From: Pontederia crassipes
Taxonomy: Eukaryota > Streptophyta > Magnoliopsida > Commelinales > Pontederiaceae
NCBI GenBank assembly: GCA_030549335.1
Contig: CM060195.1
Span: forward strand, 1,475,501-1,539,500
DNA length: 64,000 nt
Reading direction: 5' to 3'
Shown: positions 7,721 to 63,391 of the stretch, one piece after another
Layout of the letters: each line of letters opens with the position of its first letter
How positions within the stretch are numbered: the stretch's first letter is position 1
Made by a program: the position numbers and the translations under genes
The notes under the pieces: generated by a model
Databases searched by the model: none
What the model saw: only the letters and a program-made list of their open reading frames with translations
What the model was told of the DNA's origin: nothing

Positions 7721-7735
7721 AATCCAAATCAACAA

Positions 7736-7789
7736 CAACAACAAAGTCTTATCCCACTAGGTGGGGTCGGCTACATGAATCATACGACG
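7736..7789 (-). mobile_element. 5'-truncated RTE-tailed short element
   Basis: On the minus strand this is the last ~54 bp of the family seen at 38755, 41946, 49799 and 53728: GTAGCCGACCCCACCTAGTG, then GGGATAAGACTTTG and a (TTG)n tail. It is flanked by a perfect 15-bp target duplication, AATCCAAATCAACAA, at 7721-7735 and 7790-7804. Truncation at the 5' end plus a target duplication is the signature of target-primed reverse transcription. Confidence 0.85.
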
Positions 7790-16999: not shown

Positions 17000-18217
17000 A
17001 TCTTCGACGGTTCATGAAACGATTCTATGCTTACGGATGCTTTTGGGCCTGAATTAAGTTTTCAAATTAAACGCATTTATATCTCTATCTCTGCCAATAA
17101 TGACGCGTGGGTCTGGGTTAGTGATACATACGGATGTGCAAATGCTAAGTCAGTTTATCATCATATTAGCCGCCGTCCTAGGCCGCCTTCTCCCACTGGG
17201 AGGTCATCGTGGCACAACGTTTGGAAGATTCCAGTTCCTCCCAAGATCCATATCTTTCTGTGAAAATTACTGCATAACAAACTACCAACATTAGATACTA
17301 TACTTATTTTTGATAACACTATTGATCCAGCTTACTCCCTCTGTGATCTTTATCTTGAAACCAATAACCATTTATTTTTTTCAGTGCCCATTGTCGCTTA
17401 GCCTTTGGCAACTTTTTCAAAGTAAAATACATTATGCTTTCTTGCATACTGCCTCCTGGCACCTTGACTTTTGGATCTATGAAGGAGCCAACTTGGATCA
17501 ACAGTCTCGAAAAACTTTTTTTTGTCTCCTTTTGCTTATTACCTCTGGGAGCTTTGGAACCTTCGTAATAACGCACATTTTCGAGTCCGGCGTGCAACCG
17601 TGGAGTTGGTTTAGGAAAGGGCTTTGGCTGGCTATCATGAGTTTGTTGACGTCCACGCACCTGAGGCACTCTGCCCCCATGATTCGCCTCCGCGAATCCG
17701 GTGGGAGCTCCCTCCCCAGCACTAGGCTATCATGAGCTCAGACGGCTCTCTTGGGCTAGCCGGCGAAGGGGGTATTGGCTACCTTACCCTGGCTCACAAC
17801 GGAACTTTCCTTTTTGCAGGCACTAACAAGGCTATGGTGGACACTGTTCTAGAAATTGAGGCGCGTGCTATGCTCTCTGACCTCCTGAGGTGCAAGGACC
17901 TCGACATGACTCGCATTCAGGTTTACTCTGATTCTGAGACACTCGTGAAGATCATCAATAGGAAGCTGCGATGCCCTTGGCAAATTCATGGAATCATCGA
18001 TGACATCCATGCCATTAGTCTTATCATCAGCCCAATCATTGTATTGCACCGTAGTAGGATTGCTAACGACGCTACATACTATCTTGCACATTTTGGTCGC
18101 ACTCAGTTGCATAGCGACAATTTTTGGCTGAACATACCTCCTCCGGGTCTTGTTCAATTTTTGTACTCTGGCTCAAACCGAGCTATTGCTTAATATCAAT
18201 GAAATTTTCTTTAAAAA
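17000..18217 (+). mobile_element. 5'-truncated L1-type LINE with RNase H domain
   Basis: Three stretches in two reading frames look like the end of a plant LINE ORF2. First, a zf-RVT-type region at 17027-17263 (WVWVSDTYGCANAKSVYHHI, then HNVWKIPVPPKIHIF). Second, its continuation in a shifted frame at 17310-17480 (FFQCPLSLSLWQLF). Third, an RNase H-like domain at 17732-18193 (VLEIEARAMLSDLL, then VYSDSETLVKIINRK). A stop and frameshifts separate them, so it is dead. It ends in an A-run at 18212. The flanks AACGTGACAATC (16965) and TACGATGCAATC (18220) look like a diverged target duplication inside the tandem array. Confidence 0.8.
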
Positions 18218-36798: not shown

Positions 36799-38754
36799 AT
36801 GGGCAGAAAGAAGGCCCAGCCGATTCGATCCGGGAGGTTTGTAACTGAGGTCAATGCTGCAAGCTGCAGTAAGGCACAAGATTCCGTCGATGGTTCATGG
36901 AACGAAGAAGTAGACAGGGATAGAAATAAGGAAGTGCATGAGTTGCAGAAGCCAATTTATGTTGATGTGGATAGGAGTAATTGGACCTCCGATGAGCATT
37001 TTGATATAGCTGAAGTCTGTCTAAACAATGTCAGATTTTCTGATACAATAGTTGATTATGCGTCATTCCGTGATGGGATGGGAAAATGCAAGTATTCGTT
37101 GCGATTTTGCTTGTATGGTGTGAATAAAGAAAAATTAAGGCTAGGTCAATGGCCTAATCTAGATGCAAGTGACGATATATATATAGAGTGTCTCATTTTA
37201 GAGAGTCATAGTTCAGAGGACATGGAACCTCATACAGTACTTTTTTCTGGTACATTTGATGGGCCAGATAAAAGTGTGTCTGCTCTTGTGCACTTGGTTA
37301 GTTTGAAGTTTGTTTCATTGAGACTTCTTTGCATGATTGAAGGTATAAGTGAAGTTCCATTCTTTAGATTTAGGATAGAGGTCCTAAAAAGTGCTTTTGA
37401 TGCATGCAACTCTCTTCTGGAGACTACAAGGTTTCCTTGGAGGAAAAGTATAATGAATGTCATGAATTGGTTAAGACCTGAAGTTACCACTTCAGAAACT
37501 ATTTATGGTATAGAGGGGCCTATCAGTAAGGTGGACGAAGATGATACTTTCATTCAGAATAAGCGTACTAATTTCGATGTAACTAGCTTCTACGAAGCCA
37601 TTAGACCGTCAAGGTGAGCACTTATGTTGATGACAACTTAGAAGAACTTTGCTAATTATAGTAATTGATGTTTCTTTGATCCCATATTTTTTCTACTAAG
37701 AAACATTACAATAAAGGGCTGGGAGTTAGCTGTCTTTTATTTATGAGATTAATGTAATTCTCTTTGACAAATCCGGTATAGCTTTCTGCTTGGGTACATA
37801 TGTTTGTCAATGTAAGCCTTAGATTTTGGATATCGTGAACTTTTTAGTTCTCACTTAATGTGTCTAATTTGATGTTAAGAGAGGAGACTATGCTGGATGA
37901 AGAACTTCCTGACTTGCTTCCTCGTCTAAGACTGTACCAACGTCGTGCAGCATTTTGGATGGTTCAACAAGAAAAACGAGTTACCATACCTTCAGAGGAG
38001 CAGAGAGGAAGGCAGTTAGCTGCACCATACTCTGTGCCTGTTGCTTTTCTTGATAGAAGTTCAGGAATGTTCTACAATCCCTTCAGGTAGAACTCATTAA
38101 GTCAACATGTTAAGTATCGTCTTAGCTTTTAGATATATTTTCTTTAATTCTCCAAATTTACTTAGAGAAAAATGATCTGTTGCTAGGTCTGGATGGAACA
38201 TCATGCATCTGAACCATCAGTTAGGGAACCAATTTAGAACACAGAAACTTGGAAAGTTTGAGAGATGAAAGCTCCTGCTAGACAATTTTTTTGCTCAATA
38301 TTTACTATATTATACATATAGATATTTAAAATGTAAATTGTGGGATCACAAACCAACTATATGTTTAAGAAAAGTAGAAGACAAATCCATATTTATGAAT
38401 GGCAGGGGAAAGTTGGTTGGACCAGAGCGCAGCTCAAATCTTCTGAAGATGTCAAAATATGTCTTATCATATTGCAGTGTCACAAGAATGTAGAATCGAC
38501 TCTTCATGACTGTACCCAAGTCTTTTATGGTCATACAATTCATAATACTTCAGATGGTTTTGCAATAAGGAAACATCTGAATAAAGTTGCAATTGGAGGC
38601 ATTGTAGATTCATTTTTCAGGAAGTTGCTCTCTATTAATCCTAATCTACACAAGCTGATGCTGTCCTTGCTGTATGAGATATACGTTAGTTTTTGTATGC
38701 TATAGATAGTAATTCATTTTTTATGCTTTGTGAATTTTTTTTATGTGATTTAAC

Positions 38755-38943
38755 TCCGCCTATGTTTTATAGCCGGTCCCAAGCCCGGATAAAGGAGGAG
38801 AGTTGTGTTAGGCCCCGACAGCCAGCGTAAAATCCTGTTGAATCTCATGAACATGAATCAACGAATTTGGAATGACGTCGTATGATCCATGTAGCCGACT
38901 CCACCTAGTGGGATAAGGCTTTGTTGTTGTTGTTGTTGTTGTA
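38755..38943 (+). mobile_element. RTE-tailed short element in SHPRH intron 2
   Basis: About 185 bp, from CTCCGCCTATGTTTTATAGC through GGTCCCAAGCCCGGATAAAG to CACCTAGTGGGATAAGGC and a (TTG)n tail. It matches the copies at 41946 and 49799 along its full length. No clear tRNA promoter boxes. Its target duplication is not obvious. Confidence 0.8.
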
Positions 38944-39295
38944 TTTACAAAAATTTGTAGGTGTGAGTTCTGTACCCTTTCATGTTGTACATAGCTTGCA
39001 GACTAGATTGTTTTTAGTTGTTATTTATGCCTTGGACGGTTGTGTTTCAGTGGAAGTATATCATTATGTCCCGAGCCCCTTTTATCAGAAGTGTCTGGTG
39101 GGATCCTGGCTGGTAAGTAGGCAATTTATGTTGTCTTAATATAATCAAGCTTTTATCAGATTATTCAACTTCTTTGTCTGTGATTTTCCAATCAAAGATG
39201 AGATGGGCTTGGGCAAAACCGTTGAATTGCTGGCGTGCATCTTTGCTCATCGTAGAACAACTTTAGAAGGCCGCTCCATTTGTGAGGATCTGACT

Positions 39296-39333
39296 CAAGA
39301 TGTACGTGGTCAAACAAGATGTACGTGGTCAAA
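39296..39333 (+). repeat. 19-bp tandem duplication in SHPRH exon 4
   Basis: CAAGATGTACGTGGTCAAA occurs twice head to tail. With a single copy the frame runs from the SNF2 Walker A exon straight into the PHD finger (TQDVRGQIKRQKLERVECIC); with two copies it shifts by one and reaches a stop (TAG) within about 80 bp. Confidence 0.95.
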
Positions 39334-40452
39334 TAAAAAGACAAAAACTAGAGCGTGTCGAGTGTATTTGTGGTGCTGCTAGTGTGAGTTCCAAGTATAA
39401 AGGGTCATGGGTGCAATGTGACTTCTGTGATGCTTGGCAGCATGCTGATTGCATTGGTTATATGCCAAAGAAAGAAGTTTCTCAGACCCCTCATGCCATG
39501 AAAGAAAAAAGATCCGAGAAAAAGAATAGCAGGGAGAAGAAAGACGATGAAGTGATACATAAAACAGACAATGAATATATATGCCCTCTGTGCTCAGAAC
39601 TCATTGATGCAATTAAGATTAAGAGAAACACTGGAGCAACACTTATAATATGCCCAGCTCCTATATTGTCACAGTGGAATTCCGAAATAATTCGGTATGA
39701 TCTTCAATTTTCACTGCTGATATACTTTTCACGTTATATATGATGGCCCTGAATTTTCTTAATTTAAAATTTGAGTTCATTTATAAAAGGAACTAAAACC
39801 TTCAATACCTTCTTGGAGCATTTTTAACAGCATGCAACATATATTTTCAGCCTATGCTCTCTAGAAGTCTGAACGTAACTCAACTAGCTTTAAGTTCAAC
39901 CTACTTAGTCATTAACTAGACTCACATTCTTATTTTACAGTATCAGTTATACTTTTCTTGTGGTTCCTATAGTCTGAAAGCTTTCTTACAATTCTGAAAC
40001 AATTGATTTGGCTTCTTGACATTTTGCTCCCATCATATGAAATTCACATTTTTTTGCACTGATGAGGGAATAGAACATCTAAACGAATCTTCACTCAGGT
40101 TGTATGGGTCATGCATACTTTTTCCAAGTATTTTAACCTTTAGTTCTATTGCCCTCACCAACAATCTCAATTCGGCTACAGTTTGTTTTCGTCTTGCCAC
40201 TAGTGTATATCATATATAGATGAATTTGAAACTTATGACTGAGTAGAATCACTGAATGCTTGTCTTCAGCCTTCATCTTCATTAGTAGTGATGATGTGAT
40301 CTCTAGGCTAAATGTACATCAATTACCATTAGTTTTTGGGAGCTTTTCCCATAGGTAGATTGTACATAAACTAGTAAAAATAGGTAGTCGATGTAATCCT
40401 GACTATTTACATCTTTTTCTTTATAGCAACTGGCATTCATCTCATTTTCTTT

Positions 40453-40890
40453 TAGGGTTATTTCCATTTAACTCTCCTAAGTTATAGATTTTATCCACTT
40501 TCATCACTAAACTAAGAAATTATCCACTTGCCATCCCTACACTATTGAAGTGTTCCCTCTCTATCCCATCGTCAACTTTTTTGCTAACTTTCTATTTTTT
40601 TGTTTATCCAATACATCTGTACCCTTTATTAACAATTTGAAAAGGAAAATAATAAAATTGAAAATACATACTTTAAAATTAAAGGATGTATTCTTATTTT
40701 TTTAACATTGAAATGTCAAATATATTTTTTAGATTTTTTTAAATTTTTTTTCCAAATTATAATACAGGGTAAAAGCTGGATAAATAAAATGAAAAAAGTT
40801 AGCAGAAAAGCTGACGGTAGGATAAAGTGAAAAACTTTGATAGTTCAAGAAAGACAAATGACTAATTCTTATAGTGAAAATAAGCCATAA
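40453..40890. mobile_element. MITE with long inverted arms in SHPRH intron 4
   Basis: The left end TAGGGTTATTTCCATTTAAC pairs with the reverse complement of the right end, TATGGCTTATTTTCACTATA. Further in, TATCCCATCGTCAACTTTTT is mirrored by TATCCTACCGTCAGCTTTTC. About 440 bp, non-coding, AT-rich centre. Confidence 0.7.
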
Positions 40891-41235
40891 TACATGAGAA
40901 GTAAATGCTAACAAACCAATTTATGTTATATCCTTTTTCTTAGCTTGCAATTTGTTGTTCTTTTCTTTTTTGTTTCCTCTCTTGTTACATGAACTTACAG
41001 CAAATGTGGTTGCATTTTGTTTATTTTGTTTTAGACATACAAGATGTGGTTCTCTCAAGGTCTGCATTTATGAGGGTGCAAAGAGCCTAGATTCATTGGC
41101 TAATTTGAGAACCCGAATGAATGAGCTAGCTGATGCTGACATTGTCTTGACGACTTATGATACTCTAAGAGAAGATTTATCGCATGATTCTGATAGGCAT
41201 GATGGTGATAGTCACTTCCTAAGATTTCAAAAGAG

Positions 41236-41928
41236 GTACAATGCCAACTAAACTTGCTTGCTAACGCTTTACTTTTCCTTTCTATTGATAGATATTTTTT
41301 TAGTAGGAAATGGTTTACTGGTATTCCTGGACCGTAATAATGTGCAAGTTTCCTCTTTTATTGGCCGTCTGAGAGCCATGATACTGTACAATTTTCCTCT
41401 TTTAACCATGACTCATAAATTTCCAAAGGCGAAACTTTAAAGATTTTCTAGTGAAGTGATGAGACCAATTGCACAATGGGCTGATCCTCAAGTTGCTTCA
41501 ACATTCGAAAAGACATTGGATGTTTATCCTCTAGAGAATCAATGTCTCACTTTTAATAATGAAATGATTTTGGAAAGCCAGGGCTCTTCAGTTAATGATT
41601 CTGTTTCACCTTTGACCCATAGTTCATTGTTCATTCCTTATATGTTCATTTCTCTTTTTGAAGGCATCATATTGTTTCCTAAATGTAATTTAACTTACTA
41701 ACTCTTCACTTTAGTAAGAATATTTAGTTAAAAGATTAATGGAAACTTAGGGAATGAGATGCCACTCGAGTAACTATCTGACAGTTGCTTTTGTAGATAT
41801 GGAAAGGAATTGAATGTTTTGAATTCTTTAGTGTAAGTGGTTAATTATAATTAGCAACAAATACAAACAGCTAATCAATGTATCATTACTAGACAACATG
41901 GGGATTCATTTTTCTAATTTATGTCTAG
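41236..41928 (+). other. SHPRH intron 5
   Basis: It contains an open stretch at 41456-41640 (WADPQVASTFEKTLDVYPLE) that matches nothing I know in SHPRH and is not bounded by a convincing splice pair. Probably chance, or a remnant of inserted sequence. Confidence 0.3.
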
Positions 41929-41945
41929 GTATCCTGTAGTACCAA

Positions 41946-42127
41946 ACTCTGCCTATATTTTATAGCCGGTCCCAAGCCCGGATAAAGGAGGAGAGTTGTG
42001 TTAGGCCCCGACAGCCAGCATAAAATCCTGTCGAATCTTATGAACATGGATCAACGAATGCGGAATGGCGTCGTATGATCCATGTAGCCGACCCCACCTA
42101 GTGGGATAAGGCTTTGTTGTTGTTGTT
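41946..42127 (+). mobile_element. RTE-tailed short element inserted in SHPRH exon 6
   Basis: The 182-bp body runs from ACTCTGCCTATATTTTATAG to the (TTG)n tail and is flanked by a perfect 17-bp target duplication, GTATCCTGTAGTACCAA (41929-41945 and 42128-42144). That word is the very start of exon 6 (after the acceptor TTATGTCTAG) and encodes the expected YPVVP residues, so the element landed 17 bp into the exon. Confidence 0.93.
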
Positions 42128-43375
42128 GTATCCTGTAGTACCAACTTTGCTTACAAGGATACATTGATGGAGACTATGTTTGGATGAGGCACAGATGGTG
42201 GAGTGCAACCAAGCTTCAGTGACAGAGATGGCAATCCGTATACATGCTGAACACCGTTGGCGTATCACTGGAACTCCTATACAGCGCAGGTTTGAAGATA
42301 TGTATGGACTTCTTCATTTCCTTAGAGCAAGTCCTTTTGATATCTACAGATGGTGGGCTGAAGTTGTTAGAGATCCATATGAGGTAAGCAAATGCATCAT
42401 CAATTGAACATTATCTGCACCTGAAAAAAGTTCATTTATATATCAAAATTGATTTTCTCCTGAGGTTGCTATTTGTTGTGGTTCTCTGGTGGCAATTAAA
42501 CATATTTAATTTGGTAGCTATCCAGCTTTTATTGTTTGGTTTTTTCCATTTCTTGGGCTTGCTTTTGGACCTACAAATCGTGATATTATGCGAATCAGGA
42601 CTTCATCCTTTCAAGAATAATCTCTATGAACCCTTAACGAGCACCAAATTGTGCAACAAGGACTATTTCTCTTTTATTTTTCCCCTTTAAGTAGAATATA
42701 TTATCTGTTTTTGCTCATCCATATCATAGTTCATTTGTACATAATCGTACTGAAAAAGGGGAGAAAAAGACCAATAAACAACGGATATGCTGTATTATTT
42801 TTGGGGGAGAACATTTGTTCTAGTATGTTTACTTACACATGACATGGCATATTGATGTATACAACTTTGCACAACATCTATATATTGTGTTGCAAACTTG
42901 TCTTTCATCCATTTCCTTTTTTCTTTGTTGAATATATACATTGGTGTGCTTTATATATCAGTGTAGCACTTTGTCATTTTAAGCAGCTTCAGAAGTGGAT
43001 TTTACTCTATACTTGCTGGCAATTGCACATGAGGTGTATATGCTAAGGATTGATAACAGAGCAATGTTTTTGGAATAAACATTTTATTTACATGTTATCA
43101 TCTTTTCTACTCAATTTGGTTGGTAATATTCATACAAAATGGAATAATTTGATACATGTTCATAAGAATGACTTCTAATGAATAGCTTGACACAGCCATG
43201 TTCAATATGCTATCAACCCATTACTTCATCTGTAATCCTGAGTAATGCAATCTTACACATCTTTTATTGCTTGATATATAAGTGTTATTGAGTATTGATA
43301 GCTCATTTTTATCCCGTTAATTACGTTTCTCCGGTGTGAGCTTCCATGAAAAAATCATTGTCACTGGGAAAGTTA

Positions 43376-43595
43376 TTTGTAATATAGTTTTTAGATTAGT
43401 TGGTCTCCTCATTGAATTGGATCAATGGTTCAAATAGTAGAAACACGTCTTTATATCTATTTTATTTTCTATGAATTGTAGTGAATTCTTCCAATAGCTT
43501 GTATTTCAGATGAGAAATGCAACAACTATGGAATTGCTTGTAAAATACCTTAAGCAAATAACGTGGCAATAATCTAAAGTTCATAATCATTTTGA
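43376..43595 (+). pseudogene. fossil duplicate of SHPRH exon 7 start and its upstream intron
   Basis: TTAGATTAGTTGGTCTCCTC ... TGTATTTCAGATGAGAAATG ... CTTAAGCAAATAACGTGGCA ... TCTAAAGTTCAT repeats, with divergence, the stretch 43601-43786 that contains the real acceptor and the first ~80 bp of exon 7 (TTTAAGCAAATAATGTGGCG). The upstream copy has lost its coding sense and is an old tandem duplication of about 215 bp. Confidence 0.85.
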
Positions 43596-46500
43596 AAGCT
43601 GTGTAATATACATTTTAGATTAGTTGGTTACCTCATTGAATTTAACCATATTTTATGCTTTACTTTCTTTGAGTCGGAGTAAATTCTTTGGATATTTGTA
43701 TTTCAGAGGAAAGATTTGACAGCTATGAAATTTGTCCACAAATACTTTAAGCAAATAATGTGGCGTTCATCTAAAGTTCATGTGGCAGAAGAGCTAGAGT
43801 TGCCACCACAAGAGGAATGCCTGTCGTGGCTCACGTTTTCATCAATTGAGGAACATTTCTATCAAAAGCAACATGAAACTTGTGTGAAAGTCGCACATGA
43901 CATGATCAAAAGCTTAAAACATGATATTTGTAAGCGTGAACAAGTGGCTGGTAATTGTTGGTTCTTTGATTTCATATGCATAAAATCTTAGGAACCATGT
44001 GATTAACAATTAACATATTCTCTGTCTCCTAATTCTTTCTAGGTTTTGATGCTTCATGCAATACATTTCTCTCCCCTAGTGAATTTGCAAAGTTTGTAGG
44101 CCCACTCTTGAAGCTTCGTCAGGCATGTTGTCATCCTCAAGTTGGGAGTTCTGGCCTTTGCTCATTGCAACAAAATCCTTTAACCATGGGAGAGATTTTA
44201 GAAGTGAGTCAATACACATATTCTTACACTGTTAGTAAGTTGGAATGTTACTTTAGGTTTCTAACTTGGGTGCCATGTATAGGTTCTTATCGGAAAGGCC
44301 AAAACTGAAGGAGAGGAAGCCCTTCGAAAAATTGTTAGTTCATTAAATGGTCTAGCTGCGATAGCTACAATTGAGGAAGATGATAAACGGGCAGTGTCAT
44401 TTTATCAAGAATCATTGGCCTTAGCTGATGAAAATTCTGATGATTTCCGTCTGGATCCTTTGTTGAATCTTCATATCCATCATAATATGGCTGATTTGCT
44501 CTCCAGGAGTTCTGAATCTTCACAATACTGCATTTGTCATCAAGTTGGAGAACAAACTCTTGAAATGAATGGAATTAAGAAGCAAAAGATATGTGTTATG
44601 GGGAGGATTGGAAAACACTACATTAGGAGAAATACTAATGAGCACAGCAATTCAGTTTCAGATACAGATAATACATCTTTGGATCAGTGTGAAAAGCTAG
44701 CTGATGATACCTTTCCAGTCGCTGCATTCAATACTGGGGAAAAAGACTTACAAATTAATGAAGTTCAGAAACAAGAAATAGGTGTTCCAGGGAAGTTTGG
44801 AAAGTACTATGTTAGAAGGAGAAGAAACATTGAGCACAGAATTCCAGTTTCAGATTCGGATAATACATCTTTGAATCAATGCAAAAAGGATGGTCATCAT
44901 CACTCGTCAGAAGGCACTGAAGTCAATGACGCTCAAAGGGTATCGCCAAGATGTTATAATATTAATTGCCTAAGGAAGTTTGTTCAAAAGATGAAGGAAA
45001 AATACTTGTCTCTCTCTTTAGTTCAAAGATGTGTTTGGCACGGAAGGAATTCAACTATTCGTTCTTGCAGGTAGCATACTAGTTGTTAGTTTTTCCTTCT
45101 CTATGTTTCCTTTGACATAGTTTAATAATCTAGATTTGTTTTGTTCATTTATCTTATTATGATGCTAAAAAATACTGATATTCAGTGTTATGAGTTCAGA
45201 TTAGGTGAAAGTGTTAAATTCTAAGATATTTGGGCTATATATTCACAAAAGCTGTCTTCTTTCTCTCTTAAAATATAACCAGAATTAGCGTTGTTGCAAG
45301 CTGTGCATGACAATTTTCAACAAGGAAATTGCCTCACTTTCGATGATTTTTCTATTCATTCACATTTAAGAAACTGGATTCTAAGATATTAGAAAAAAAG
45401 ATGGTGGTGCCTTAAATGGAAAGACAATACTAGTATCTTAAGTGGATTGAAGATATGACCTAGTACATTAAAAGAAAAACTAGAATACCTTCAATATACA
45501 AGATGGGAAAAGATCTCTCAAGTATATTACCTGTCAGAACTAGAATTTAGATGCTCTTGTCTTATCTTTTAAAAACACAGCTATAAGTTGATAATTGATT
45601 TTATCAGTCAATTTGAAAATTATACAGCATGAGAGACCAATGTTCACCCTTTTTATCATGTAAAAGGAAACAAATGTATCAACTAGCTGTATAGATGTGC
45701 TCTCAAGTTGTAGCATTAGTCGTGTACAATTCATGTTCTTGTTTCCTCCTTTTATCATGAGATCCTACACATTTAACTCTTGAGTTTGTCATTATTTCAG
45801 GTTTCCAGTACCTATGATGAATTGCAAAATGACACTGCAGCTTGGTGGCTGAATGGTCTTAATCATATCAATAAGGAGTCATTTGAGGAGTTAATAAGAA
45901 AGATTGATCAAGCTATCTCTAAGATAGCTCATAATGAAGGATCAACTAGAGTTTCATCAAGGCATGTTCTGCTTCAAATTTCTTTACTTTTTGCATTAAA
46001 ACAAACCGAGAATGGATACAAAGATGATTCTGAACAAACTGCATTAGTAGAAGGTCACCAATTTTTTCCTTCACGTTCATACGCTCTTTGGGGGTTGAGT
46101 TTTGGGGGCGAGTTTCCTCTAAATTACAATTAATGTACTTTCTTTAACCTGCACCAGTTGCGTAACTACTAATTAGGTTAGTAACTCCAATTCCATCCTT
46201 GTAAATACTGGTATTTTTATTCCACAAAAAATATAAAAAAATTGATTGATTAATCATGGATCACTTCAGGGATCTAGAACTAAAGAAATACCTTATTGAC
46301 TGCCTACTGGGCCAATCCAAAAGTATGTTTAGGCTGTTTTATTTTTCTTTGATATTATTTAGGCTCTTCCATGTGGACTTTGACAGAGTCAAGCATGAAC
46401 TGCTATGTGCTGTGTTTTTTTGGTATACTGGTATGTACTGTTGGTTTCAGGAACAAACACAATAAGGTTATGCAGGTATTTAAACCTCAAATCACAATCA

Positions 46501-47667
46501 GGTTATGTAGGTATTTAGACCTTGATAATTTTGAGTAGTAGATACCTCTGTATTAGCAGGCTCACTCTTTTCAGGGACGAATCATAATCCTGCATCACTG
46601 TCTCCTTTATATTAAGGCTTATAAATGTGCTTTCTGGTACATAATAATTTCCTTTTCTGATTCAGGTTTAGGAGTGTTAGTACTTTGATATATTCCATCA
46701 AGACTGGTCTAGATTCTTTGCAAAATGCTAGGCAAGTATTAATTGATCAACTTAGAGAAATAGATCGAACAATGGACAATCCGAGGGATGACGATGTTGA
46801 GCGTATTAGGTACTGCCCAAAGTGTTATGATGGTAATGGTCCTCTATGCATTCATTGTGAACTGGATGGGCTGTTCCAGGTTGGTTTATTTGCTGGTTCT
46901 ACTCCACTTACTCGGATAATTTTATTCTATAACTCTGATTTATAAATGAATACAGGCATATGAGGCTAGGCTATCTTTTGTGAGAAAACTAGATAACAAT
47001 AGAACTATTGCCTCAGTCGAGGAAGCACTGGACTTCCAAGAACGAAACCTTGAGTTAAACTCTTTTTTCTTCCGTAACAAAAGAGCAGACTTTCACAATG
47101 CCGGTAAAGATGATAAACGACATGTTTCTGGGAACATTCAGGTAATAGTACAATCTATTCTACAGTTCTGAGCTGATCTAAGTTGTGCCCGTTACCTACT
47201 CTAATTTAACTTTGTGCAACAATTTTTGTATTTTCTTGTTTGTACTTTTATTTTACCTTCTTATATGCCTGTAACTTAGGTTTCATCTGCTCGTGCTTTG
47301 AAGTCTTTTTGAGATATCTTAAAATTGTGGCTCATGCTTTGTTTGTTATATTTTAATTTTCGTGCCTAGAGATTCGTACTCTCACAGCCTTCCAATGTTA
47401 GTTGTGTTCCTCATAACATGCAGAAGCTCCAATGTTTGGTGATGCATGCACATCAGCTATCACATCTAATGATTAAATGGTTCTAAATTTGATGACACAT
47501 TTAGTAGCATACCCTGTTATCTTGTCCCATTACATGGTTTATTCTCCGATCCAGATTTTGAAGATTCCATCTCAACTTGAGATTATTCTCAAAATCATAA
47601 AGAGTTATTCAAAGGCGGTGTTAGGAAGAAAAGATATGGAATTCGCAAGCAAGCACTTATCTTTGAG

Positions 47668-48905
47668 GTACATTTTTACACTTAAGGAATCATGATCGCA
47701 TTCCAAAATTGTGCTCATAATTGTTTTATGAATGATCTAATTGATCATATTGTTTATTCATGTAGTAGCAGTTGTCTTTTAGCAACACACTTATTTCATA
47801 TTATTTCTAAAATACTACAAAATAAATGTGTTGTATTCAGATTTTATCATAGAAAATTTGAGAAGCGAAGATTTTAAATGACATTTTTCACATTTATATT
47901 CAGATTTTTTATCTATATATTTTCAATGGGTTTATCTATAAAAAAATCTGTATTGCATGCAATACTTTGTCGGGCATCATATTCACTATATGTTTCCTTT
48001 CCCATAGATAATCACTTTTGAAAAAGATTTTAATTTGCGTCCCAAAACAAAACTAACCACTCCCTCATTCCAGGATTATCAAAGAGATGGGAAATATAAT
48101 ATTCTCTATGTCCCACATATTTCCCCCAAATATAGTGGAGTTATACCTTATCCAAATGGCTCCGATGACCACCATCGCCAATTCCTATCCCCACCCTTGG
48201 TTGTCTTGCACCTCAGTGCTCAAAGTGAGCTCCGAAAAATGACCATTACTGAGAGGTCAATATTTATGATACATGTCTGTTGACAATACCTCGACCACCA
48301 CGGGACATTAAAAGAATAGTTGGATAAGGTCCTCAACTAGTCCACATAAAGCGCATGACGTATCCATGTTGGGTGCTTATTTCACCTTCTAGACTTGCCT
48401 CAAAAGTCAAGTAAAATCTTGAGTTTGAGATATATAAGAGACCTTCAAATATGTTGGCATGAGTCTGCTCAAGGCCATGCTCCTTGGGAGTAGCCATGAA
48501 TGAATTCCTCGAGCATAAAAATGACTATAGAGCCACACCCATCCAAATGTAGAAGCATCTGGCTGGTATCAGGAAATCCTGTCATGTGGTGCTATTAGTT
48601 CCACTATGAATTGGTCCGTGAGGCTAATATATGAACTGCAGAGTCTAGGAGCCACCCCAGATCCACTAGATGGTGTCTAGAAATTTAAAACTAATGCCTC
48701 CAGAGCTGTCGGGACTCGGGACTGCTGCTAATCTATGAATAGTGTTAGCGAGTGTATCCATTCATATCGTTAGAAGGAGGAATTAGTTGATATTCCATGA
48801 CAAACTTGATTTCCAAAGCTATGCCTATAATTGTGTGTTAGCATCTAAGTTGTCTATATGACATATGCACTACCAACTTTGTAATCTTTTCTCATCTATT
48901 TCTAG
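47668..48905 (+). other. SHPRH intron 13
   Basis: A 1.24-kb intron. The middle (about 48030-48800) is less AT-rich and looks like inserted material, with an 82-residue open frame that has no recognised domain. Confidence 0.35.
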
Positions 48906-49798
48906 GCAATGTGGAAGGAATATGCTCAAGCAAGGTCATTGTCAACAGCCCAAGCACAAGTATTGCGTGCTTATGATGAAATTAGAATGGCTACTACAAG
49001 ATTGCATCTTAAAGTGACTGAGGAAGGGCCCATTACTACCGATGTGCTTGGTAGAGAAGAGCTAGTCTCAGCTAGTATGCAATTATCAAGTGAAAAGCTT
49101 GTGTCATTATCATCATTACAAAGCATAAAGGGACAACTTCGTTATTTAAAGGTGAACTATAAGCTCTGCTGTTGTATTTTGTCTCATTATATAAAAATCT
49201 TTTCGGTGAACTCATGGTTATCTGGACTATTTCACTGGTGCTAGGCAAAATAAAGGCTAAATATTCAAGGATGTCCAGAACTCAAAAAGGAAAATATGGC
49301 ATGCGTGTTATAGCCTAGAATAGTTCAATAATGTCATCATTAATTGTGGATGACATTAAAAAATGCTATTACAATAACTAAAAGGAGTATTCATAATAGA
49401 AGTAACGATTAGAATCAAGTGTTAACTATGAAGGAACCTAAGCAAACATTCATGAAAAATATGCTTGTCTTTATAAAATAAATCCATCCAAACTGGACAA
49501 TGAATCTTCATCGCTCTTATGATTCTAGTATTTCCCGGAAGCTACAACAAGAGAAACATGGCAACAAATGACATGTTATCATGTTTGTTCCCGTAAAAAA
49601 GATGTTTCTCTCTAAAATGTTAGTGTCATTAAAGTTTAGATATGTAACTGGTGTTACCTCTCTTATATGAATTTTTAAGACACTTAAATTTTTTACTGAG
49701 ACATGTCATAATCTTAATGATTTGAACATGTTAAGATCAAGAGGCAAAAAGGTGAAGGAAAAAGTAAAAAAAAGAGAAGATGTGATATATATCCATCA

Positions 49799-49984
49799 AC
49801 AACAACAACAACAACAACAAAGCCTTATCTCACTAGGTGGGGTCGGCTACATGAATCATACGACGTCATATTCGTTGATTCATGTTCATAAGATTCGACA
49901 GGATTTTATGCTGGCTGTCGGGGCCTAACACAACCCTCCTCCTTTATTCGGGCTTGGGACCGGCTATAAAATATAGGCGGAGTT
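49799..49984 (-). mobile_element. RTE-tailed short element in SHPRH intron 14
   Basis: Minus-orientation copy: the (CAA)n end sits at the left, followed by the complement of the shared tail, then GGGCTTGGGACCGGCTATAA near the right end. It is flanked by a perfect 16-bp target duplication, TGATATATATCCATCA (49783-49798 and 49985-50000). Confidence 0.93.
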
Positions 49985-51419
49985 TGATATATATCCATCA
50001 GTAAAATAAAAATCTAGCAAAATGCGTACTATTCTACAATGAAATTATGTGAAAAACATAAATTTTCCTGGTCATCAATTGGATATTGTACATCAAAGTA
50101 TCATATTTTTTTGGAATATTTTTTGAATGATTTTTGCATAAAATTACCATTATAGAAATTGTCATGAGAGAAAGATTACATGTTTCAATTAATGTGAAAG
50201 CATTTGTGATCCTATTCATTGATAGTTTCAGAGAGTTGGATTGGCTTCTTTAAATGAGGCTACCATTTGACACTGCTTGTGGGAAAAAAACTTGATAAAG
50301 ACCTTCACTAATAAAATCTATGCATTCATGAAAAGCTGTTTTTCTGATGGATAGACTCATAAATTTATTAACATGCACCACATTCAGATTATTGGCCTCA
50401 GAAGGTCAACAAAATGATTGGCCAATTTAGGCACAATGCTGTCTATATAAAAAAATCCTCATTGCAGTTCATGTCATTTATTCTATCCAAAAAGTTGTAA
50501 TGTCTTTTTTAGGAAGTAAAATTATGAGTTTGCCTTGCACTAGATTTGTTGTCATTTAGTAATAGTGGTATGACAATTATGTAGCACTCTGTTATGGAAT
50601 ATATGTTTTTTCTTCTAGGGAATGGTTCTATTGGGTATGAATGTGCAAAACAAAAATCTTGGATTATCATCAAGGCCTCAAGACTCAACTGGTTCAACTC
50701 CTGCTGCAGAGGGAAGTGGGACTATTCACAGGAAATATGATGAGACCTGTCCTATATGTCATGAGAAGATTCTGGATCAGAAAATGGTTTTTGAATGTGG
50801 ACATGTGGTTTGTTGCAAATGTAAGCATACAGCGGCTTTATATTTTAATATGAATTTTCTTACACATCTTTTTTCTCGTATTTTTAATGATAGTAAATTT
50901 CCGTGTGTTTCGGGTATGATCATTTCTAGTTTTGTTACAAGCATGTTCTTATTTTCCTTTCAATCTTTTTATTTGAAATATGAGGCAGCACTATATCATA
51001 GGTTTGAAACATATACAAAACTGGAAAGGTACCCCCATCAACTATATTCTTTGAGGCAAACAAATAAATTAGAGGATAATGTGCAAATGCATGCAAATTG
51101 CAACAACTGGACAACAATATGAACTGGATACATCTTATGATATTTGCATACTCAAGTTACCATGGAAAAAACCATGTCGGACTGGGGAGATGATGGTGTG
51201 TGTGCAGGGTGACGGCCAGGTTGGGGTCTTGGAGTGGTGTTGGGCAGGTGGGTTTGATGGTGTAAGGGTTGGGGGTGGTGGGGCCTTTTGGCACCACTCC
51301 TTCCCAATTTGATTAATTAATTATACATATATACACACACATTCCCTAAATATATGTTACCAATTACATCCGTGTGTATGATTTCTCACATATCAAATGA
51401 TCATTCTTCTCTTTTCCCT

Positions 51420-51775
51420 TCCTCGTGATCATATCTGTGCATAGGAGGCAAATGTCATTGATCTACTATCTATTTATTGAAGCGAGAGTGCCATCATGGT
51501 TAGATCATAAATTCACTTCCTTCTTGTTTTCCCTCCCTCTCGTATCTATTCGTCGCGGGCAAAAATTGTTGATATACTACCTATTATTGATGAGAAGTGT
51601 GCCATCATGCTTGAAGAGACAGTGTCATCATGGTTAAATTCAATTTCTTCTCTTATTCCCTCCATGATCGTATCTATTTGTCAGGGCAACAATAGTTTAT
51701 CTGCTACCTATTTGTTGAAGAGAGTGCCATCGTGGTTAGATCCACAACTTGTTTGCATTTCCTCTTTGGTTTATT
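51420..51775. repeat. tandem repeat of ~115-125 bp, three copies
   Basis: CGTATCTATT(C/T)GTC...GTGCCATC(A/G)TGGTTAGATC(A/C) recurs about every 120 bp. The copies differ by many substitutions and small indels, so the array is old. Confidence 0.7.
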
Positions 51776-52091
51776 TTCATTGTCAAGATTAATTATTTGT
51801 TCTTTATTTGAGAGCATCAATCTTCCCTTCATTTTTTTATTTCATTTCAATTGAATATGACAATAATTTGGAACCATATTTTATTAGTTAAATTTTGATG
51901 ATCAATATGTATTAACTATTCCTCTAAAAAAACTGTATTAATTATTGAAGAAAACATACCTTTTATCTTTTTTATGATTCTTTGAAGGTCAACTTCTCTA
52001 ACATTCTACATTGGTTCTATTCCTTAATTTTATAGTTGTGAGGTGATTTGGAGTGAATTGAACTTCAGCATTCTAAAACAAGCATCTTGGT

Positions 52092-52147
52092 TTTAGATTT
52101 TTTTTTTCTTTTTTTTTTTTTGGGGGGGGTGGGGGGGGTGGGGGGGT
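52092..52147. repeat. poly-T then G-rich homopolymer tract
   Basis: A T-run of about 25 (one C) passes directly into about 27 G interrupted by single T residues; four or more G-runs in tandem could form a quadruplex on this strand. Confidence 0.9.
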
Positions 52148-52329
52148 GAAAGGATGGCTACAAGGTTCCGTAGCCATCCACTATATATTGTGTCAAAATA
52201 TGGAAATTTACATGCGTAAAAGAGAAACCAAAAGCCTTCCAATCCCAAGAAAAACAAAACTATCCATTTTCCCATTCCCTCATAAGATGCGATGCGTGTA
52301 GGGTAATGTTCCCTATGTAGCACCACTCC

Positions 52330-53110
52330 CTACCAAAATGTTCGATTCCGTTGCAGCCAAGTGACTCATGTGACCGCCATTACAATGAGCTATAAATGTC
52401 TTCCATCATGGTTGTCCCTTCTGTAGTTATCCCCAAGCGAATGCCAAAGCATGTCCAGCAGAGAAGTATCAACATCAGGTCTGTCCAACCTCCTCCACAC
52501 CTCATCAGTAATGGGACAACTATAGAAGAGATGACCAACATCCTCTGATGATGATCCTCACATGACGCAAGTGGTGTCAGTGCCCAGCGCCCATCGCGTC
52601 CTATATGTATGTGAGAGGATCTGGCTAAGCCTCAGAAGATCAGGCACTCGCCATCTATTTTCATTGTTCATTTGTTTGATGAGAAATAAAAAGGAATATT
52701 GAAAATTCGCGTGGCTCAGTTACTTTCAAAGTAACAAAAAAAAAAGCAACGACTAGAGTGGGAGAGTCAGAGTCGAAAAGAGGATTCCTCATTTCTTTCT
52801 CTCATTCAAAACTATGCATGAGACTTTCATCTCGCATGGCTCCTAAGTGATAAAAGAAAGAACTCATCTTCTTTCTTTTTCTATTACCTTCAAATTTTAT
52901 TGTATTACACGAGGAATATTTGACTCCCAATCTGGACATAAGAAAATTAAAAATCTTGACCTTGAGGGGTGCACGAGATCTCCAAATGTACTGGTAGTCC
53001 ACCCTGAACTCATCCGATATTGTGCATGCTGGCAGCAAATGCCAATAAACTGACCTCACGGAAAATCGGCCTGCCAACCATGTCCACCTGTTATCCTTGT
53101 CTCTGTCTGG
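52330..53110 (-). mobile_element. L1-type LINE fragment (zf-RVT region), minus strand
   Basis: On the minus strand, 52802-53077 encodes RFSVRSVYWHLLP and YIWRSRAPLKVKIFNFLMSR. Further along, 52440-52560 encodes EDVGHLFYSCPITDEVWRRL. Together these are the zinc-binding region after the reverse transcriptase of plant LINEs. About 200 bp of unrelated or degraded sequence separates the halves. No reverse transcriptase remains. Confidence 0.75.
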
Positions 53111-53727
53111 GTGAACCTTTCAAGTAGGGTAAGGAGATATTTTGAGGATTTGTTCCATGCCATTCATTTAGAACCTAATCTGATGTCAGTCAACATAGCA
53201 TCAAAGGTCTCTGTATTCGTAGGAAAAAAAAATATATGCCTGCTGGAATATATTGCCCTGGTACCGAGGAACCTGGCTGATGGATTACAAATTATAATAG
53301 AGGCAATTTTGCAGGCTTAGTTTAGTTTCTTCTTAACTTCTTATAATCATTAAATTACATGTGTCAGCAGAGATAAAGCATATAAAGCAAGAAGCCAAAG
53401 AAGAGAATATTTTTTCATTATTTCCTCCTTCTCTGCTTCTTGTCATATCATGATTAGATCTGAACCTTTTTCCTCGATCCAGTGATGCTCTTAATCTAGC
53501 AAAAGTTTTTTCTGTTAAGAATACTATCATTGAGCTAAAATTTAACATGTTAATGAAGCATGTCTGAAGTTCAGGAGAGAAAACTCGAGAAAGCAACATC
53601 ATCGTTACATCCTAAGCTCTTAGGGGAAAAAGTGTTGTTAGCCATTGCAGAGCTAAGGCCTAGCAAAGACTACCATTCTCTATAACCATATTTAAGCACA
53701 ATAAATTTAATTTTTATGTAGTATCCT

Positions 53728-53925
53728 TGAATGCGCCAGTAAGAAGAGTAGATCAAATAATCTGGAGTCCGATTAAAAGAGGGAGAGGGAGGCCAAGGCG
53801 GACACTTGACGAACTAATAGAGCAAGATCTATTGGTGAATAATATACCGAAAGGTTTGATTACTAATAGAGCGGAATGACGTCGTATGATCCATGTAGCC
53901 GACCCCCACCTAGTGGGATAAGGCT

Positions 53926-53956
<31 letters not shown>
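53728..53956 (+). mobile_element. 3' end of an RTE-clade LINE
   Basis: The frame ending near 53910 reads SPIKRGRGRPRRTLDELIEQ, then ITNRAEWRRMIHVADPH, the typical C-terminus of plant RTE ORFs (GRGRP...NRA.WR..IHVADP). It runs into CACCTAGTGGGATAAGGC and a (TTG)n tail. The last ~65 bp are nearly identical to the tails of the short elements at 38755, 41946 and 49799. Severely 5'-truncated, as is usual for the clade. Confidence 0.85.
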
Positions 53957-56900
53957 AATAATTGCTTTCTTTGCACTCTTGTATTTATGAGAGCACCATG
54001 ATGATACATCAGAAAATTTAGAGGGCAAACAATGGTTTTCAGTTAATGAGGGATAAAGTTGTTTTTGTTCCTCCTATAACCATGGTTGTTAAACTCTATA
54101 GTCAACTCTTAAAATTTTACGTATTTAAGAATTTAGATAAGCAAAACGAGTCAAATTGTCATAAACTTTTATATGACTTAGATCCTCTGATTCTACTTGA
54201 AAATTATTTTTTTTCTGAAATTGTGTAAACTCTTACACACTCTCATAAGTTTACACGATTTCAAAAAAACTTTATAAGATTTTATACGAGTTTGTATGGT
54301 TCTATACAAGTATGTATGTCACATTTTCATTTTATAACCTACTAATAGTTAACTGTCCAGTCAAGGTTCTTAAATTCTCGTATTTAACTCGTAAACTCAT
54401 ACGAATTTGTGACTTTACGCCCTCTAAATGAGTGAACTCAACACAATCATAACTTGGAGAAACTCGAATAGACTCATAGTTTCGGTAGACTCAGGAAGCC
54501 CTGAGGTATAACCATAGAGTTTGTATATTTTAAGTTAACAAGAGTTGTGAAGGTGTTAGATTAAAAAAAAGTTGTGAAGGTGTTATTTAAAATAAAATTA
54601 TAAGGGAAGAATCATTGATACAAACATCTATTGTTTCATGGTATATCTCGTAACAATGCATTTGACCATTAATCTCTCATTCAATGTGATAGCCCACATG
54701 CCCCTCCGTCTCACCAATTCATAACGACATTGTTGACTACGAATGAAAATCAACAATGTAAAAGTAACTCATGATCTCGAAATTATTTTATGTGCTTGAT
54801 GTCTCATTTTCTCAATATCCTCACATCTCATATCTCGATATTTCGTACCCTGTTAACTTATTAAATTTTATTTTCTCGCATATCAAGGTTTCACATTTGC
54901 TTTTTGAATTACCAATCAAATATAATAAATGTCATATTGTCAATAATTTTATTGTAAAGAATTGACAAATAATTAGTATGCTATATGATTTATAGTAAAA
55001 AATCAATTTTACATTTACGGCTTGAGTTTGCTGGAAGCAAAATGAGTTAACAAAATTCACTAATTCGAAAAACTTGTTTATAACTTCTTGCATGGCTTTC
55101 CTTATATAACTTTGTAGCCTCAAAGGTATATTTATTGTTTTTTAGGAGAAAGGTATATTTATTTTCGGTCATGAAATTCTTTACTTTCACATCCACTGTT
55201 ATAGTTTTAATGGCGAACAAGTTCTCATTCTTTTCCCATTTACCTTTTGCTTCCCCCTTCCTCATGGGTACTTTGAACTTCACTTATCATCCTTGTGATT
55301 ATCGGTTTTCATATAATATATTTCCTTGCAAACTTTATGTGAATCTTTTCTGTATGGAATTACAAATCTCTTTCTTGAGATGCTTTTTTTCTTTCTTATT
55401 AATTGCCTGTGTTTTAAAAAAATTGTCTTGGCATACTCAGTGGTTGTAGATTTCAGTAGTTTACTGAACGTCAAGGAATAAACAAGTTTCTGAGAATTGG
55501 TAGAGTTAATGAGTAGGTTCAAATATTTGAATGTCAAAGGTAAAGACATGTTATGACTATCATAATATCAAGAAATAAGGGCATGATATTTCATATCCTT
55601 AAGTTATATTCCTTATTCTATTATTTTCACATCCAACTCGTCTAGCAAAGACATATATTGGCCTTTACCAGACATTACGGAACAACACCGGTCCAGCATG
55701 TATCCATTCTTTCTGTACAACCCACATGCCTTATTTCAGACCTGTTTTTAATCTACTTAGAAACTTTGGCATTAGAAATAGTGGATAAGTTGTCTTACTA
55801 GAATTTGGTCTTGTGCACAACTTTTAAGCAGTGGGTAACCTGCAATGTGCGACTCATTTCCTCGTTGAATCTCTCTGTTTCTTTAACATCCTCCTTTCTT
55901 CTGCCATTTAGTTGTTCGTTGTTATGGTACTTTTACTTTTTAGCTTCTGCTTTGTAATCCTAGGCATACTTTTGGATTCAACTTAATATTCACAAGCATA
56001 TTAATCCTTTTTTTCAATGAGGTTGCTGACCCAGTACTAAGTACATCATCTAAGAAAAAATACAGATGGGAGTGTTGGCTGTCAATATTGACTGGATCGT
56101 GACTGTTGTAAACAGGTTGTCTTGAACCGACAGAATATGCAGTCCTGCATGCCAAAGACCAACAGAAATGGGTTATGTGTCCGACTTGTCGTCGCCGTAC
56201 AGATTTTGAGAACATTGCTTATGCTGATGAGAAAAAAGCCTTGGATGCTGATGATGATTTGCAAACTGAATCTGCTTTAGAAAGGTCCATTGTAATTAAA
56301 GGCTCATATGGAACAAAGGTGACTTCATTAGTTCCCTCCTTTTTCTGCAGCAATTTCTTTGTGTACTTGTATATAAGATTAATATATATTAATTTTTAGG
56401 TTGTTTTTGCTCACTTGTTATTGTGATCATGTGGAAGCAGCTATCCAATCTTCTGTATGTTCCGGGACAATTATTTGTCATGGTTTCATATCTCTATATG
56501 TTTCTCTCTTTATATATGTATATATGCTTATATATCTTCTTGCATAGCAAGAATCAGGCAATCAGATGTTTATTGCATTGCTAATACAAAAATTATATCT
56601 GGTTTTGAAGCTATATTTTAATATTGTGCCTGCTACCAGGAAAACCATCTTGCTAATGGACTAAATTATGTTTGTTAAAGCTTTCATACCACACTTATAT
56701 AGAGGCAGAAATCACATATTTCTTTGTGCAATAAAGTGAAGGTGAATCTGGAATTTGTTATGTTTTAACTAACATCATGTGTTTCTTGGTTTTATGAAGA
56801 TAGAAGCAGTTACAAGAAGAATATTGAGGATAACATCAAGTAATCAAGAGGCAAAAAATCTTGTGTTCTCCAGCTGGAATGATGTATTAGACGTACTCGG

Positions 56901-58381
56901 ACATGCTTTAAATGCCAACGATATCACATATGTTCGTATGAAAGGTGGCAGGTAAAAGTTGGCCAAAGCAAGTCTATATTGATGCAAAATCTTACTGAAC
57001 TGCCTTGTCACAGTAATTTTAGAATCTAGACTGATATTGTTAGCTAATTAAATTGTTTTTTTTTTGTCCTAGACAAGAACTAAATTTTTGTGAGTGAGAA
57101 GACATAAGGGCATATGCTGATGGTTAAGACTTTGTTTAATCACTTATGGAAGAGTGGGGAAGCAAGGGGAGGAGAGTATGAAAGAAAGATGATTTAGGAC
57201 ATAGAAGTGATGATCAAAGATGTGAAAAGAAATTCAACTCGTTTAGATTTGGAATATGAACTTTCCATTGTATCTTAGTTCATATAGTTCGAGTCTAGAC
57301 ACAAGGGAAAACTGAAAAGTAAATCCTTCAAATTTGACCAACTGGTTTGGTTTTCCATTGGGCATACAGTATTCTATATACCAAAGAATTGATTTATGTG
57401 CATTATGCTGACAGAGAGCAATCATCCAGGATCATTTAGGACGACCATGACAAGGTCAAGTAAGGTGCCACACTTTTGTTCATGGCATCGTACTATGACT
57501 AATGCAAACTGGAAGCATAAATGATATTTCAAGTGATACGACAGATTAACTATATCATTTAAGCTTCAAGCTTTTCATTTTCTTCGCGTTCCGTCGTATA
57601 ATATCTTGGTCCCATATCTTATTTCGTGTAAGAGTTGGATAATGAAGAATGGCTTTTCTGACATTGTTTTCTCATGTTCTATCACTTTGTCTTTGTATTT
57701 TCAATACATGTCATGCTTTTTATCTTCCCAGCTTATTAACCTAATGCCTTTCCATGGACACAAGCAGGCAGTCGAAAGTTGCGATTTCACAGTTCAAAGG
57801 GCAGGAAGTGATCCGGGGAGGTCACAAACCTAAAAGGCAGAAGAGAGAATCGAAGCCCGTTCAAGTATTGATGATGCTAATCCAGAACGGAGCCAATCGC
57901 CTCAATCTTCTTGAAGCACAGCATGTGATCCTCACCGAGCCGCTGCTGAATCCTGCAGCCGAGTTTCAAGCGATCAGCCGTGTTCACAGGATTGGTCAAG
58001 ACAAGAAGACGTTCGTTCACCGGTTCCTAGTAAAGCTCTTCCTGAGTACCTCTTTTTATACTTGAAATTCTGCGTTCTTCTACTAACCTTTCCGTAATCT
58101 CAGGTGAAGAACACAATAGAAGCTACAAGTTGAACCAGAGCAGGAGTGCGACCTCCCTCGCCAGTACTTCTAGAGTCAGCAAGAAACAGGACCAGCCTTC
58201 CCTGACGCTCGAAGATCTTGAAGCCCTGTTTACATGGTCGAGGCCAGCAGTCCTGCAAGAAGGTGGTGTGGCGGAGGAGGAGCAAAATGCAAGCTTCAGG
58301 GATCGGCCACCTGCTGTTGCTGCTGGTCTTGCTGCACAGAGGAGACTGATGGAAGGCCAAAGTGATTCTCCCAGCACATGA

Positions 58382-62422: not shown

Positions 62423-62878
62423 TGTAACGACCCAGATTTTTTTTAGGTTTAATAAATAGATATTTTATTATTTTATCTTGAAGAAATATTGTTATTACTA
62501 TATTTAATAATTCCGAAAATAAAAATAAAATAATTGAGAGGAGTTTGATTTGGGATGGGATTATTCAATTAATTTCGTAATTTATCTAATTAAATATTAG
62601 AATAAATAAGGAGTGGTTAAAGGGATAAATTAGAAGATTTAATTTGATTAAGATTAGATAATATGGTTAGAGAATAATTAAAAATCTATAAACACTATAA
62701 ATAAGAGTAGGGGGGTACGAATGACTCCGTCTGCGTGATTTTCGGCTTCGTCTTCGGCGACCTCAGAGGACAAGGCTCGCAGGTACGTAGAGGGGATCCG
62801 TAGATTTATTAGATTATGATAGTTTTTGTAAAGCCTATTCATATCGACTTTGTCGAAAGGAAAAAAAAAAATTAATGT

Positions 62879-63062
62879 TACGGCCGAAGAGTTAGGTTTC
62901 GGCCGTAATGAAATAATAGAGAAAGGAGAGTAGGGTTTTTACGGCCGAAGAGTTAGGTTTCGGCCGTAATGAAATAATAGAGAGAGGAGAGTAGGGTTTT
63001 TACGGCCGAGGAATTAGGTTTCGGCCGTAATGAAATAATAGAGAGAAAAAAAGGAGTTTTAC
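62879..63062. repeat. three ~60-bp units with palindromic GGCCG arms
   Basis: TTACGGCCGAAGAGTTAGGT then TTCGGCCGTAATGAAATAAT recurs at about 62879, 62939 and 62999. Each unit carries an inverted pair, TACGGCCGAA / TTCGGCCGTA, able to form a hairpin. A partial fourth begins at 63060. Confidence 0.95.
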
Positions 63063-63090
63063 GGCCGTAACGGATAGGCCGTAACGGGAT

Positions 63091-63391
63091 GGCCGTAACA
63101 GAAAGGGGGTAATAGAATAGGGTGTAACAGAAAGGCCGTAACAGAAAGGGGGTAATAGAATAGGGTGTAACAGAAAGGCCGTAACAGAAAGGGGGTAATA
63201 GAATAGGGTGTAACAGAAAGGCCGTAACAGAAAGGGGGTAATAGAATAGGGTGTAACAGGAAGGCCGTAACAGAAAGGGGGTAATAGAATAGGGTGTAAC
63301 AGGAAGGCCGTAACAGAAAAGGGGTAATAGAATAGAGTGTAACAGGAAGGCCGTAACAGAAAGGGGGTAATAGAATAGGGTGTAAAAGTTT
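63091..63391. repeat. 43-bp tandem repeat, seven copies
   Basis: GGCCGTAACAGAAAGGGGGT, then AATAGAATAGGGTGTAACAG, starts at 63091, 63134, 63177, 63220, 63263, 63306 and 63349, a constant 43-bp period with only a few substitutions. The array shares the GGCCGTAA word with the 60-bp units upstream. Confidence 0.97.

Follow-up and report, generated by a model that had tools for sequence, protein, structure and literature searches.

The 64-kb window, by which we mean the whole stretch of DNA analysed here, appears from its gene content and elements to be plant nuclear DNA. It carries on its plus strand an SHPRH-type gene of 19 exons and 18 introns, with 5447 exonic bases and introns ranging from 74 to 5295 bases (Table 1). 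Its anatomy was worked out by three-frame reading of parts of 36700-58520 combined with splice signals, the latter fixing the exon limits. An acceptor and a donor were located for every intron, 17 of the 18 being of the GT-AG and one (intron 10) of the GC-AG class, such that the 19 exons and the splice sites which the original prediction had called recognisable are all accounted for. The donor of intron 10, at 45962, reads AAG/GCATGT (exon/intron); a native rare donor and a decayed GT both fit this sequence.

In SHPRH proteins, which act in DNA repair as helicase and ubiquitin ligase, a SNF2 lobe with an inserted PHD finger is followed by helical domains, a RING and a second lobe, and the human protein has a linker-histone-like domain as well. 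Pfam was searched with single pieces of the translation and with the full read-through, in which X was set at the breaks. The read-through scored above cut-off for SNF2-rel_dom (E 2.3e-62, profile positions 1-289 of 290), SHPRH_helical-1st (PF21325; E 5.1e-22) and SHPRH_helical-2nd (PF21324; E 3.8e-07), and no linker-histone model was found in it at E 0.05. Among the single pieces, PHD (29.4 bits, cut-off 24), SNF2-rel_dom (27.7 bits) and SHPRH_helical-1st (72.8 bits) exceeded their cut-offs, the PHD finger falling below cut-off in the full read-through (22.1 bits, E 1.5e-04). RING models stayed below cut-off with the exon 15 half of the domain as a single piece (zf-C3HC4, 19.0 vs 21), and with the read-through an XB3-type RING model (16.2 bits vs cut-off 50) was the only one to appear, none of the common RING models being returned; by eye, the Cys/His pattern of the RING is present and, like the PHD ligands and all helicase motifs except V, ordinary-looking. 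Helicase_C remained below its cut-off of 23.5 bits in the read-through (20.7 bits, E 5.3e-4) and also as a single piece; in the PDB, SNF2-type second lobes were matched at 4.6e-09. The first lobe and helical region together retrieved yeast RAD5 as the best PDB match (1.5e-17) and the human SHPRH chain 4qn1 at 1.1e-07, and a 102-residue piece had no PDB match. Pattern matches in viral contigs (2) included no relative, and those in genome contigs (13) included one, a bacterial protein at 30% identity that was left out of the analysis. The domain order appears to be common to the locus and the PHD-containing plant SHPRH proteins, and the gene is probably of the AtCHR36/OsCHR739 type. AtCHR36 (At2g40770) and OsCHR739 are paired in Table 1 of PMC9820626.

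Table 1. Features of the SHPRH-type locus, its interruptions and repeats, and further elements of the window
Feature	Position	Strand	Evidence or remark
SHPRH-type gene, almost certainly a pseudogene, ATG to stop codon of the tail, 19 exons	36799..58381	+	exon table, Pfam
Exon 1	36799..37613	+	splice signals
Exon 2	37880..38086	+	splice signals
Exon 3	39051..39112	+	splice signals
Exon 4: motif I, PHD finger, motif Ia; broken	39198..39694	+	stops in three of three frames
Exon 5	41035..41235	+	splice signals
Exon 6: motifs II and III; two breaks	41929..42383	+	stops in three of three frames
Exon 7	43707..43950	+	splice signals
Exon 8	44043..44203	+	splice signals
Exon 9: first SHPRH helical domain, in-frame internal repeat; frame broken near 3' end	44283..45070	+	
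Exon 10 (GC donor follows)	45801..45961	+	splice signals
Exon 11	46666..46879	+	splice signals
Exon 12	46956..47141	+	splice signals
Exon 13, with lesion 5	47555..47667	+	splice signals
Exon 14	48906..49151	+	splice signals
Exon 15: RING, first part	50619..50820	+	splice signals
Exon 16: RING, remainder	56116..56318	+	splice signals
Exon 17	56800..56951	+	splice signals
Exon 18: motifs V and VI	57768..58029	+	splice signals
Exon 19, with lesion 6	58104..58381	+	splice signals
Lesion 1, exon 4: tandem 19-mer	39296..39333	+	Tandem Repeats Finder
Lesion 2, exon 6: SINE	41946..42128	+	183 bp
Target-site duplication, copy 1, 16-mer	41930..41945	+	
Target-site duplication, copy 2, identical 16-mer	42129..42144	+	
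Lesion 3, exon 6: in-frame TGA	42165..42167	+	
Lesion 4, exon 9: frame shift	~45003..45020	+	CT-rich stretch
Lesion 6, exon 19: change of frame	~58121..58124		
Motif V, GANRLNL (exon 18)	57889		
In-frame internal repeat, exon 9	44563..44888		
Full-length SINE copy, intron 2	38753..38935		94.5% identical to exon 6 SINE
Full-length SINE copy, intron 14	49806..49983	-	93.4% identical to exon 6 SINE
Partial SINE copy	53871..53940		
Partial SINE copy	7730..7789	-	
LINE remains, intron 15	52400..53120	-	zf-RVT 18.3 bits, below cut-off 27.5; continuation by eye
Piece with group II intron domain, intron 15	52766..52844		Rfam 49.7 bits
Open frame with RVT_3 domain	17726..18193		2.4e-10
Two adjacent tandem arrays	62878..63385		61- and 43-bp units, 97-98% matches

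Interruptions of the reading frame and their consequence

The coding sequence is interrupted at six places, and these lie in exons 4, 6 (twice), 9, 13 and 19, where frame breaks had been predicted; the prediction needs amending only in that one of the two breaks in exon 6 is a nonsense codon and not a frame shift. In exon 4, the 19-mer CAAGATGTACGTGGTCAAA occurs twice in tandem, both copies being 100% identical, and the reading frame is thereby shifted downstream of motif I, ahead of the PHD finger. Exon 6 harbours a SINE that ends in TTG repeats and is flanked by a perfect target duplication of 16 bp; just upstream of motif II, the exon also contains a TGA that is the single stop in the 1737 kept codons. 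The frame of exon 9 shifts within a CT-rich stretch, and in exon 19 the frame coming out of exon 18 (VKNTIE) differs from that of the tail (YKLNQ...LTLEDLEALF). The open frame of exon 13 leaves the exon in a phase incompatible with exon 14; because this phase mismatch is its whole basis and the changed base could not be located, the exon 13 break is the least secure of the six. None of the six lesions falls in a long homopolymer. The predicted change in motif V is likewise borne out: GANRLNL stands in place of GANGLNL, with R where SNF2 relatives carry G, the latter residue being found in all five of the best 5 of 69 PDB matches, two of them from one and the same protein. Unlike an AtCHR36/OsCHR739 SHPRH, the copy at this locus bears six interruptions and an altered motif V, and it therefore cannot make the SHPRH enzyme.

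Missed splice sites were rejected as the cause of the breaks in exons 4, 6, 9 and 19, which lie inside stretches that continue in another frame, and inspection by eye of the surroundings of exon 13 revealed no nearby alternative site that would join the frames. Cryptic sites, also inspected by eye, were considered around the SINE: use of an AG in the second copy of the target duplication gives the wrong frame, and use of an AG downstream of the TGA keeps the frame but loses the residues before motif II and lacks a pyrimidine tract, and was judged unlikely.

A working SHPRH has an uninterrupted coding sequence; here, with six lesions, the spliced message as written runs into a stop after 422 amino acids, just past motif I. 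The gene might conceivably still function if its breaks were spliced around or if a truncated product sufficed, and whole-exon skips were enumerated. Exons 9 and 13, flanked by matching phases, could drop out without a change of frame, exons 14-18 are jointly open over 361 codons of read-through that cover the RING and the second lobe, and the longest open path of any kind from the ATG, which joins exons 1, 2, 3, 8, 9, 11, 12 and 14-18 and meets an early stop in exon 19, would still encode 1175 amino acids. Yet in exons 4 and 6 each of the three frames contains stops, so that whole-exon skipping always sacrifices motifs I, Ia, II and III as well as the PHD finger. Of the paths that reach the annotated stop from the ATG, the longest (exons 1, 2, 3, 8, 9, 11, 12, 14, 15 and 19) in addition omits exons 5, 7, 10, 13 and 16-18, and motif V is altered in any case. 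We thus regard residual function by either route as extremely improbable.

Age and nature of the decay

Three estimates bear on the age of the lesions. One stop in 1737 kept codons, which marks the decay as recent, translates into a K of 0.0038-0.0051 substitutions per site at transition weights of 1-4 (95% limits 0.0001 to 0.028); at a K of 0.03, seven stops would be expected and the probability of one or none would be 0.007. The four frame-shifting indels, the SINE being excluded, yield a K of 0.0048-0.0096 (limits 0.0013 to 0.025) under assumed indel-to-substitution ratios of 0.2-0.1 and a frame-shifting fraction of 0.8. The SINE in exon 6 carries 3 private letters in 183 columns, or 1.6% (0.3-4.7%), plus 2 ambiguous columns, a value that is an upper bound since some of these changes may predate the insertion. 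All estimates concur on a young decay, with point estimates of 0.004-0.016 substitutions per site. At usual plant substitution rates, this presumably amounts to an age of the order of 0.5-3 million years.

Repeats within the gene give a glimpse of the time before. The in-frame internal repeat of exon 9 spans about 50 codons in two copies that are 75% identical in DNA, and over 49 aligned codons dN is 0.267 and dS 0.755, a ratio of 0.35 (p 0.017 in a Fisher test on rounded counts). Within intron 6, the first part of exon 7 recurs as a degraded copy (43461-43584 vs 43659-43781, 76% identical) with a stop in the exon 7 frame, exon 7 itself being open; this copy is part of a decayed tandem duplicate that takes in the last part of intron 6 and the first part of exon 7 (43378-43584 vs 43602-43781, in pieces that are 76% and 90% identical). 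Small as these samples are, such repeats point to earlier constraint and agree with long maintenance of the gene followed by a recent failure.

Since introns are retained, a processed pseudogene was rejected; 18 introns with splice signals accompany a reading frame broken by six lesions, as in a non-processed pseudogene. The copy is almost certainly a young pseudogene. More specifically, we consider it very likely that it represents a recently inactivated, non-processed copy of a PHD-containing plant SHPRH, because the six lesions are varied in kind, the 19-bp and 16-bp duplications are perfect, one stop is found in 1737 codons, introns are retained and two neighbouring exons are open. This evidence upholds the recent inactivation proposed in the original prediction. 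In this reading, an SHPRH gene of normal 19-exon anatomy would have lost constraint, whereupon ordinary mutation would have gathered lesions over a short time, namely the 19-bp tandem duplication, the SINE insertion, the nonsense codon and three further frame breaks. As a pseudogene, the locus is ordinary in kind: retained introns, frame-breaking indels, a nonsense codon and insertion of a transposable element are shared with other non-processed (unitary or duplicated) pseudogenes.

A well-kept protein, with RING, PHD finger and motifs other than V looking intact by eye, would also fit a working gene with assembly errors, and the small breaks in exons 13 and 9 are the likeliest of the six to be errors of sequencing or assembly. 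The SINE with its target duplication, the 19-bp duplication and the nonsense codon would, however, be unusual errors and are poorly explained in this way, as the original prediction had argued for the first two. Moreover, two large neighbouring exons are unbroken, namely those of a KIP1-type gene (open frame of 561 codons; PF07765, 1e-23) and an EDR4-type gene (686 codons; PF11331, 2.7e-19). If breaks were placed by length alone, all six would fall into the SHPRH gene with p = 0.039, a value biased toward the pseudogene reading because the neighbouring frames were noticed for their length. On balance, error in an intact gene appears very improbable to us.

Possible origins: decaying duplicate or loss of the sole gene

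The interest of the locus hinges on whether an intact copy remains; the original prediction had named both a loss and a decaying paralogue. Decay of a duplicate, that is, of a paralogue or homoeologue that arose by segmental or whole-genome duplication and has an intact counterpart elsewhere, falls only a little short of being probable: retained introns are as expected of a DNA-level duplicate, and it is general knowledge that plants often carry recent duplicates. If such an intact second copy exists, ordinary duplicate decay is all that has happened here. A null allele segregating beside a functional one, or a broken haplotype in the assembly, would agree with the youth of the lesions, but six are many for one segregating allele and are better accommodated by a longer period of neutrality, making this a distinctly unlikely explanation.

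Loss of the sole PHD-type SHPRH of the plant, by contrast, would be a unitary loss, which we regard as a serious possibility, albeit one clearly short of an even chance. Soybean is an old polyploid. According to PMC10138738, its SHPRH group includes one PHD-containing gene and two genes with an F-box, and other published tables show the PHD type to be absent or undetected. In barley, the single SHPRH-group gene is paired with AtCHR39/OsCHR708 and none stands beside AtCHR36/OsCHR739, one SHPRH-group gene being entered in each of seven accession rows of Table 2 (PMC9820626); in tomato, one gene is given for CHR39 and none for CHR36 (PMC6458923). For maize, PMC11396418 gives an SHPRH count of three, and its counts sum to 35 maize genes plus 41 Arabidopsis genes; if both Arabidopsis genes are included, this would leave one maize gene of unstated type. 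Rice OsCHR739 is reported as expressed (PMC9194907).

Against this stands the possibility that absences in published tables are search artefacts. The barley survey applied a cut-off of 1e-5 and required both SNF2_N and Helicase_C (PMC9820626). The Helicase_C score of our read-through would fail this cut-off, with the qualifications that motif V is damaged here and that E-values are only roughly comparable across searches. Given so strict a demand and so weak a score, the absence of the AtCHR36 type from barley may be an artefact of this sort; surveys with a strict Helicase_C criterion could overlook PHD-type SHPRH genes, and their patchy absence in the tables merits rechecking. The more far-reaching proposition that the PHD-type SHPRH was lost here as a unitary gene, was inactivated no more than about a few million years ago and represents one of several independent losses among flowering plants is one we are inclined to doubt. 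Were it true, the role of this gene type might be dispensable in some lineages, or covered there by RAD5A or the CHR39 type. In humans, SHPRH attaches polyubiquitin to PCNA during post-replication repair, and the plant members are little understood (PMC10051476); a young natural knockout would permit asking for the role of SHPRH in plants by comparison of sister lineages. Among the matches listed from the open-licence PMC literature, none was seen to describe a pseudogene of plant SHPRH.

The exon 6 SINE and other repeats of the window

The exon 6 SINE is matched elsewhere in the window by two full-length and two partial copies (Table 1). The element looks Au-like, but its TTG tail is as in TS SINEs. 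According to PMC3747384, the TS element of tobacco ends in (TTG)n and Au-like SINEs end in poly(T); PMC5787218 puts the length of Au at 181 bp and SINE target duplications at 5-15 bp. By description, the exon 6 element agrees with plant SINEs of the TS or Au type in its length of 183 bp, its tail and its target duplication, the 16 bp of the latter lying just outside the published range.

A segment bearing a group II intron domain splits the LINE remains in intron 15; a plastid ndhA/ndhB-2 model scored 38.7 at this insert, below its cut-off of 53. The bases that follow the group II intron domain resemble exon 2 of plastid ndhB, and the insert looks like decayed plastid DNA. Elsewhere in the window, two tandem arrays lie side by side, and an open frame with a reverse-transcriptase-like RNase H domain is probably a retroelement remnant.
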